NCBI RefSeq assembly: GCF_000006445.2
Contig: NC_006048.2
Location: 186,001 to 250,000 of the forward strand
DNA: 64,000 nucleotides
From: Debaryomyces hansenii CBS767
Taxonomy: Eukaryota > Ascomycota > Pichiomycetes > Serinales > Debaryomycetaceae
Direction: 5' to 3'
Positions within the stretch are counted from its first letter, which is position 1; each line of letters opens with the position of its first letter. A model generated the notes under the pieces. It was given only the letters and a program-made list of their open reading frames with translations, was not told the DNA's origin and searched no databases. Positions 26,953 through 27,363 of this stretch are shown here, piece after piece. The position numbers were made by a program, and so were the translations under genes.

Positions 26953-27363
26953 ATGGCAAGAACCAAGCAAACAGCTAGAAAGTCCACAGGTGGTAAGGCC
27001 CCAAGAAAGCAACTTGCTTCAAAGGCCGCCAGAAAATCGGCACCAGTCAGTGGTGGTGTTAAGAAGCCACACAGATATAAGCCAGGTACTGTTGCTTTGA
27101 GAGAAATCAGAAGATTCCAAAAGTCTACTGAGTTATTGATCAGAAAATTACCATTCCAAAGATTGGTTAGAGAAATTGCTCAAGATTTCAAGTCTGATTT
27201 GAGATTCCAATCTTCGGCTATCGGTGCATTGCAAGAAGCAGTTGAAGCTTACTTGGTTTCGTTATTCGAAGACACAAACTTGTGTGCTATCCACGCGAAG
27301 AGAGTCACCATTCAAAAGAAGGATATCCAATTAGCTAGAAGATTGAGAGGTGAAAGATCGTAG
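26953..27363 (+). CDS. Histone H3, CTG-clade variant type
   Basis: A complete 136-codon histone H3 with the usual [14 protein letters not shown] tail. It differs from the canonical yeast protein at the positions I recall as marking the CTG-clade H3 variant: Val31 and Ser32 in SAPVSGG (canonical Ser31, Thr32) and Ser80 in DFKSDLRF (canonical Thr80). Other differences from S. cerevisiae H3 ([24 protein letters not shown]) are probably lineage features. The gene stands alone, with no H4 or other histone gene in the window, whereas canonical yeast H3 genes are paired with H4. Codon choice is strongly biased as in highly expressed genes. In C. albicans the variant is reported to influence biofilm gene expression. 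Confidence 0.95.

Follow-up and report, generated by a model that had tools for sequence, protein, structure and literature searches.

The window analysed here is the whole stretch of 64,000 nucleotides (C6:186001-250000 of the genome), and positions given without a contig name refer to it. Analysis of the window located a histone H3 gene whose open reading frame starts with an ATG at 26953, ends with a TAG at 27363 and contains the ...DFKSDLRF... stretch; residues of H3 are numbered throughout with the initiator methionine left out of the count. The minus-strand frame across the gene holds several stops, and no other open reading frame of at least 100 aa was found to overlap it. There are zero CTG codons in the gene, so its reading is independent of the genetic code. 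The preliminary description had placed a stand-alone H3 gene with V31, S32 and S80 at this position, and its coordinates, strand and residues all proved to be exact. Both neighbours are non-histone genes, one upstream and one convergent to the H3 gene (Table 1).

Three further genes of the window can be mentioned. At 36288-37664 on the minus strand, approximately 9 kb from the H3 gene, lies a gene whose product has a CENP-U domain (PF20994, E 3.6e-9); we take this product to be an Ame1-type kinetochore protein. An EnY2/Sus1-type protein (PF10163; 24977-25282, plus strand) occupies one open frame of 101 codons, and a polyubiquitin gene (56269-57642, minus strand) has six ubiquitin repeats in one frame.

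Table 1. Positions of the variant H3 gene, of the features around it and of the other histone genes in the genome. C1, C4, C5 and C6 denote contigs; positions without a contig name are those of the window.
Feature	Position	Strand	Remarks
Variant histone H3 gene, most probably Hht1 / H3V-CTG	26953..27363	+	136 aa; V31, S32, S80, A95; single unbroken frame; Pfam PF00125, E 2.2e-46
Intergenic region upstream of variant H3	26370..26952	+	no H4 partner; no AAACAAACA; AT repeat directly before the ATG
Palindrome GCTTGTTTACAAGC	26401..26414		about 540 bp before the variant ATG, near the stop of the upstream gene; holds the sole forkhead core found in the region
NADH-ubiquinone oxidoreductase (complex I) 20-kDa subunit, NDUFS7-like	25743..26369	+	non-histone upstream neighbour; PF01058, E 1.1e-27
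Protein with three RRM stretches	27771..30014	-	non-histone downstream neighbour, convergent to variant H3; PF00076, E 4.2e-41
Canonical H3 gene 1	C1:897665-898072	+	genome protein search with variant H3
Canonical H3 gene 2	C4:1073583-1073990	-	genome protein search with variant H3
Cse4-like H3 gene (CSE4)	C1:696164		69% identity over residues 35-134; genome protein search with variant H3
H4 gene 1	C1:896804-897112	-	genome H4 search
H4 gene 2	C4:1074758-1075066	+	genome H4 search
Canonical H3-H4 locus 1	C1:896804-898072		shares AAACAAACA
Canonical H3-H4 locus 2	C4:1073583-1075066		shares AAACAAACA
Divergent H2A-H2B pair (presumed), C4:1383-1384 kb	C4:1383373-1384541		shares AAACAAACA; PF00125 search and protein sequence
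Divergent H2A-H2B pair (presumed), C6:1542-1543 kb	C6:1542106-1543106		shares AAACAAACA; PF00125 search; about 1.33 Mb from variant H3
H2A.Z-like gene (presumed), here named HTZ1	C5:468 kb		PF00125 search and protein sequence

The genome (12,181,948 bases in 8 contigs) was searched with the variant protein, which identified four H3-like places (four candidates, all four scored), and with H4, which identified two. Each of the two H4 genes adjoins one canonical H3 gene and is divergent from it, the spacing being 552 bp in one pair and 767 bp in the other. This bore out the proposal that canonical H3 copies are paired with H4 and that the variant is unpaired. Two findings had been named in advance as contrary to the preliminary description, namely the same three residues in the other non-Cse4 H3 genes and an H4 partner beside the variant. 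Both canonical H3 proteins have one and the same sequence, with S31, T32, T80 and S95, and no H4 was found in the genome search either next to the variant or anywhere on its contig. The gene is an H4-independent H3 paralogue, the single one found in this genome, which arose by divergence from canonical H3 and has remained separate. A search of the genome with Pfam PF00125 gave 15 places, 13 of them above the family cut-off; the names H2A, H2B and H2A.Z used for some of these are our assignments, made from sequence on general knowledge of these histones.

The variant protein is identical to canonical H3 at 132 of the 136 residues and differs from both copies at positions 31, 32, 80 and 95. Residues 31, 32 and 80 do differ as had been described, but they are not the full set of differences: A95, in place of the canonical S95, was unmentioned. 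So high an identity could be explained by a redundant third copy of H3, a spare gene in neutral drift encoding a protein interchangeable with the canonical one. It would agree with this that the null mutant of the Candida albicans variant is reported to be viable and that the variant supports growth there, partially, when canonical H3 is absent (PMC6703697). The codons argue against it. Comparison with the canonical copies revealed synonymous changes in 41-42 codons and replacement changes in 4 (dS 0.86 and 0.84; dN about 0.019; NG86), which demonstrates strong purifying selection on the variant protein. In addition, the identical four residues are present in two further records (P0051 and P0042), and a double change of residues 31 and 32 has a phenotype in C. 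albicans (PMC6703697). We consider a redundant copy to be very improbable.

The two canonical genes differ from each other by no replacement and 31 synonymous codon differences (dS 0.46, NG86). Counted by thirds of the gene, the codons that differ between the variant and the two canonical copies number 20/9/17 and 15/15/15. They show no sign of recent conversion; gene conversion with the canonical copies in the recent past is ruled out by these differences throughout the gene. A pseudogene is likewise ruled out by purifying selection, and the flanks are also unlike the canonical ones. Codon adaptation of the variant gene (0.661) is near that of one canonical H3 gene (0.680; the other has 0.838) and far above the values for CSE4 (0.272) and HTZ1 (0.473). 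Codon use therefore gives no hint of low expression, and judged by it the variant H3 gene looks well expressed.

Two other explanations of an unpaired H3 gene were considered, and nothing was found in favour of either. The first is an assembly artefact, in which an H3 copy separated from its H4 neighbour would stem from contamination or faulty assembly; this is scarcely credible, as the gene lies within a contig of 2.3 Mb with ordinary genes on either side, the longest stretch in common with the flanks of canonical H3 is 13 bases of AT repeat, and both H4 genes found already adjoin canonical H3 genes. The second, a centromeric (Cse4-type) H3, can be dismissed just as firmly, since the protein has an intact tail of the canonical type and 97% identity with canonical H3, the divergent tail and fold of Cse4 / CENP-A are not seen in it, and a separate Cse4-like gene is present on C1.

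Residues 31, 32, 80 and 95 were counted in 171 H3-like sequences (P0001 and 170 matches), which are best-scoring representatives with many eukaryotes mixed. In each of the two H3 protein searches about 7990 cluster representatives were scored and the best 120 taken; these represent 90% clusters, and CTG-clade H3 proteins are therefore mostly hidden inside clusters. At residues 31-32 the pattern failed to score 15 of the 171, so the counts are lower bounds. The V31-S32 pair was found in at least 3 of the 171, the query included, and all three also have S80 and A95. One of them, P0051, is identical to the variant H3 at all 136 residues, but with a different upstream translation; the tail of the other, P0042, holds a duplicated stretch. 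None of the 4 aligned structure chains, among the best 60 of 224 distinct chains matched, has V31-S32.

S80 alongside S31-T32 is present in at least 56 of the 171 sequences (46 + 10), which include the genera Colletotrichum, Trichoderma, Monilinia and Venturia. This shows that S80 is not diagnostic and is weak evidence for H3V-CTG. At least 9 of the 171 have T31-S32. Two of them, P0065 and P0066, also have T80 and S95 and are 98% identical to the query; these could possibly be an intermediate or a separate variant. V31, S32 and S80 had been put forward as the defining triplet, and all three residues are indeed present; S80, however, is common in ordinary fungal H3. What marks H3V-CTG is V31-S32 and not the full triplet, because in C. 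albicans single reversions at 31, 32 or 80 are reported to leave the biofilm unchanged and only the 31+32 double reversion changed it (PMC6703697). The diagnostic mark is thereby narrowed to V31-S32.

The origin of the window in a CTG-clade yeast could be examined independently of H3. In a tRNA survey 22 places matched a tRNA word, of which 10 were scanned, and one of these 10 loci has the anticodon CAG (L022 at C2:611170, positions 1493-1577 of L022). Inspection by eye showed G33 in this tRNA, with a variable arm and a discriminator like those of a serine tRNA (anticodon TGA, L025) and unlike those of a leucine tRNA (CAA, L020); ARAGORN calls it Leu because it applies the standard code. G at position 33 is a hallmark of CTG-clade serine tRNA, and a tRNA(CAG) of this kind decodes CTG as serine in the CTG clade. 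CTG accounts for 33 of the 11395 codons in 18 open reading frames of the window. The protein encoded at 22043-23989, a fast-evolving neighbour, has 83 homologues at E<=1e-3 among 7994 scored. Those named belong to Priceomyces, Suhomyces, Scheffersomyces, Yamadazyma, Candida, Lodderomyces, Spathaspora and Metschnikowia, which are CTG-clade yeasts, and the nearest four database entries stand at 67-95%. Thus the claim that the variant places the organism in the CTG clade gained independent backing from the serine-type body of the G33 tRNA(CAG) and from the homologues of the neighbour protein; in taxonomy, D. hansenii belongs to Serinales, Debaryomycetaceae. Overall, we identify the gene, with a probability of about 0.93, as that of the histone variant H3V-CTG (Hht1) in a yeast of the CTG clade, most likely a Debaryomyces.

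Upstream regions of the histone genes were then compared. The sequence AAACAAACA is the only 9-mer common to the intergenic regions of all four canonical histone loci, with 7 copies in 2334 bp, and we take it to fit the forkhead/Hcm1 consensus. It was chosen after inspecting the four promoters, and a shuffle control was made for that reason: with the four promoters dinucleotide-shuffled 1000 times, 7 of the shuffles share any 9-mer, no shuffle shares one that contains two or more G/C, and AAACAAACA is present at most twice. The 9-mer is present once in the 164 bp upstream of HTZ1 and in 1 of the 30 intergenic stretches of the window, which were made by masking open reading frames of at least 100 aa and include the variant's own region. 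It was found neither in the 583 bp upstream of the variant H3 gene nor upstream of CSE4; 1.7 copies would be expected in the variant region at the canonical density, and this absence is not significant alone (P(0) about 0.17). The forkhead core within the palindrome GCTTGTTTACAAGC reads GTAAACAA and lies on the minus strand at 26403-26410.

An 11-base sequence, WAAYAAACAAW, was assumed as the Hcm1 consensus for scanning. It is present in three of the four canonical promoters and at HTZ1, and is missing from one H2A-H2B promoter. Genome-wide it has 426 matches versus 424 for the reversed control, and is therefore not enriched. Three places in the genome carry a forkhead domain. For RTTCCN6TTCNC, presumed to represent the budding-yeast Spt10-type consensus, there were no matches in the 9 regions scanned; the looser form TTCCN6TTC gave one match in these regions, in an H2A-H2B promoter. 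The MCB sequence ACGCGT is present, among the regions scanned, only in one H2A-H2B promoter and at CSE4.

These promoter motifs hint that S-phase control of histone genes in D. hansenii may use a forkhead factor. A literature search found no report of histone genes being controlled by forkhead factors in these yeasts, and the text of PMC2694189 on this topic concerns fission yeast. The fuller proposal, that a forkhead (Hcm1/Fkh-like) element drives the canonical histone genes and that the variant has escaped the S-phase programme, must be considered doubtful. Such a promoter difference could explain a timing of the variant separate from that of the canonical histones.

The function of the variant has been studied in C. 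albicans, where H3V-CTG / Hht1 is orf19.6791 (PMC6703697; PMC2869362). The protein level of the variant is reported to be lower there and its gene to lie outside the canonical clusters, and in planktonic cells its occupancy is greater at biofilm promoters (PMC6703697). According to PMC10653867, it is enriched at promoters, lacks active marks and is evicted in biofilm. It has also been stated that histone variants are usually replication-independent, and the loss of a phosphorylation site in the tail was pointed out (PMC2869362). The preliminary description regarded the gene as that of the H3 of biofilm chromatin: this role was measured in C. albicans (PMC6703697), but it does not thereby become a property of D. 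hansenii. Matches to domains of biofilm regulators were found at two places (TEA) and three places (NDT80-type) in the D. hansenii genome; these are domain matches only, with orthology not implied.

If the analogy with C. albicans holds, the Hht1-type variant would be made in smaller amounts, apart from H4, would pair with the common H4 and would replace canonical H3 mainly in promoter nucleosomes. With V31-S32 in the tail, the hydroxyl of S31 is lost between K27 and K36, and marking there would plausibly be altered. Promoters with the variant would then carry fewer activating marks and be less readily reached by transcription factors until the nucleosome is evicted. By this analogy the likely role of the variant would be that of an H3 making some promoters less accessible; we put the chance that the C. 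albicans-type promoter mechanism operates in D. hansenii at about even. If the doubtful proposal of a variant freed from the S-phase programme were correct, H3V-CTG would be genuinely replication-independent, and its first function, older than the biofilm circuit of C. albicans, would be to keep certain promoters closed, with biofilm control being a later use.

The variant of D. hansenii resembles H3V-CTG of C. albicans in having V31 and S32, a difference at position 80, and a gene outside the H3-H4 pairs. As in C. albicans, there are two canonical H3 genes, each divergent from H4. HHT1 of C. albicans was described as unpaired and divergent, and was proposed as a variant, in 2010 (Zacchi et al. 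2010, PMC2869362). The H3/H4 census in one genome thus revealed the variant architecture of C. albicans in a relative of Priceomyces and other Debaryomycetaceae, which means that the variant is no peculiarity of that pathogen. Debaryomyces hansenii is among the species named in the legend of S1B Fig of PMC6703697 (Rai et al. 2019), with Hht1 and Hht2/Hht21 shown per species. Hht1 of that figure is probably the same protein as the one described here, matched through the legend and not through the letters of the sequence, so the variant is already known as a kind and this protein is probably in print.

There is also a difference between the two yeasts: residues 31, 32 and 80 alone are reported to separate Hht1 from Hht2/21 in C. 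albicans (PMC6703697), whereas the D. hansenii variant has a fourth difference, at position 95. This suggests that position 95 may have been altered either in one of the variants or, in one of the two lineages, in its canonical genes. Canonical H3 of D. hansenii has two differences in its C-terminal half from chain 4kud_A, which we take to be H3 of Saccharomyces cerevisiae. In that half all three H3 genes of C. albicans are reported to depart from S. cerevisiae H3 at five common positions (PMC2869362); two versus five indicates that canonical H3 varies between these yeasts.

All three H3 proteins of C. albicans were assigned to the H3.3 class (PMC2869362), so an H3.3 signature cannot separate the variant from canonical H3. 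The variant is like animal H3.3 in several respects: it is an H3 variant differing by a few residues, it is changed at position 31, and its gene stands apart from the canonical ones. Unlike animal H3.3, it has been proposed to be of independent origin, in the CTG clade (PMC6703697).
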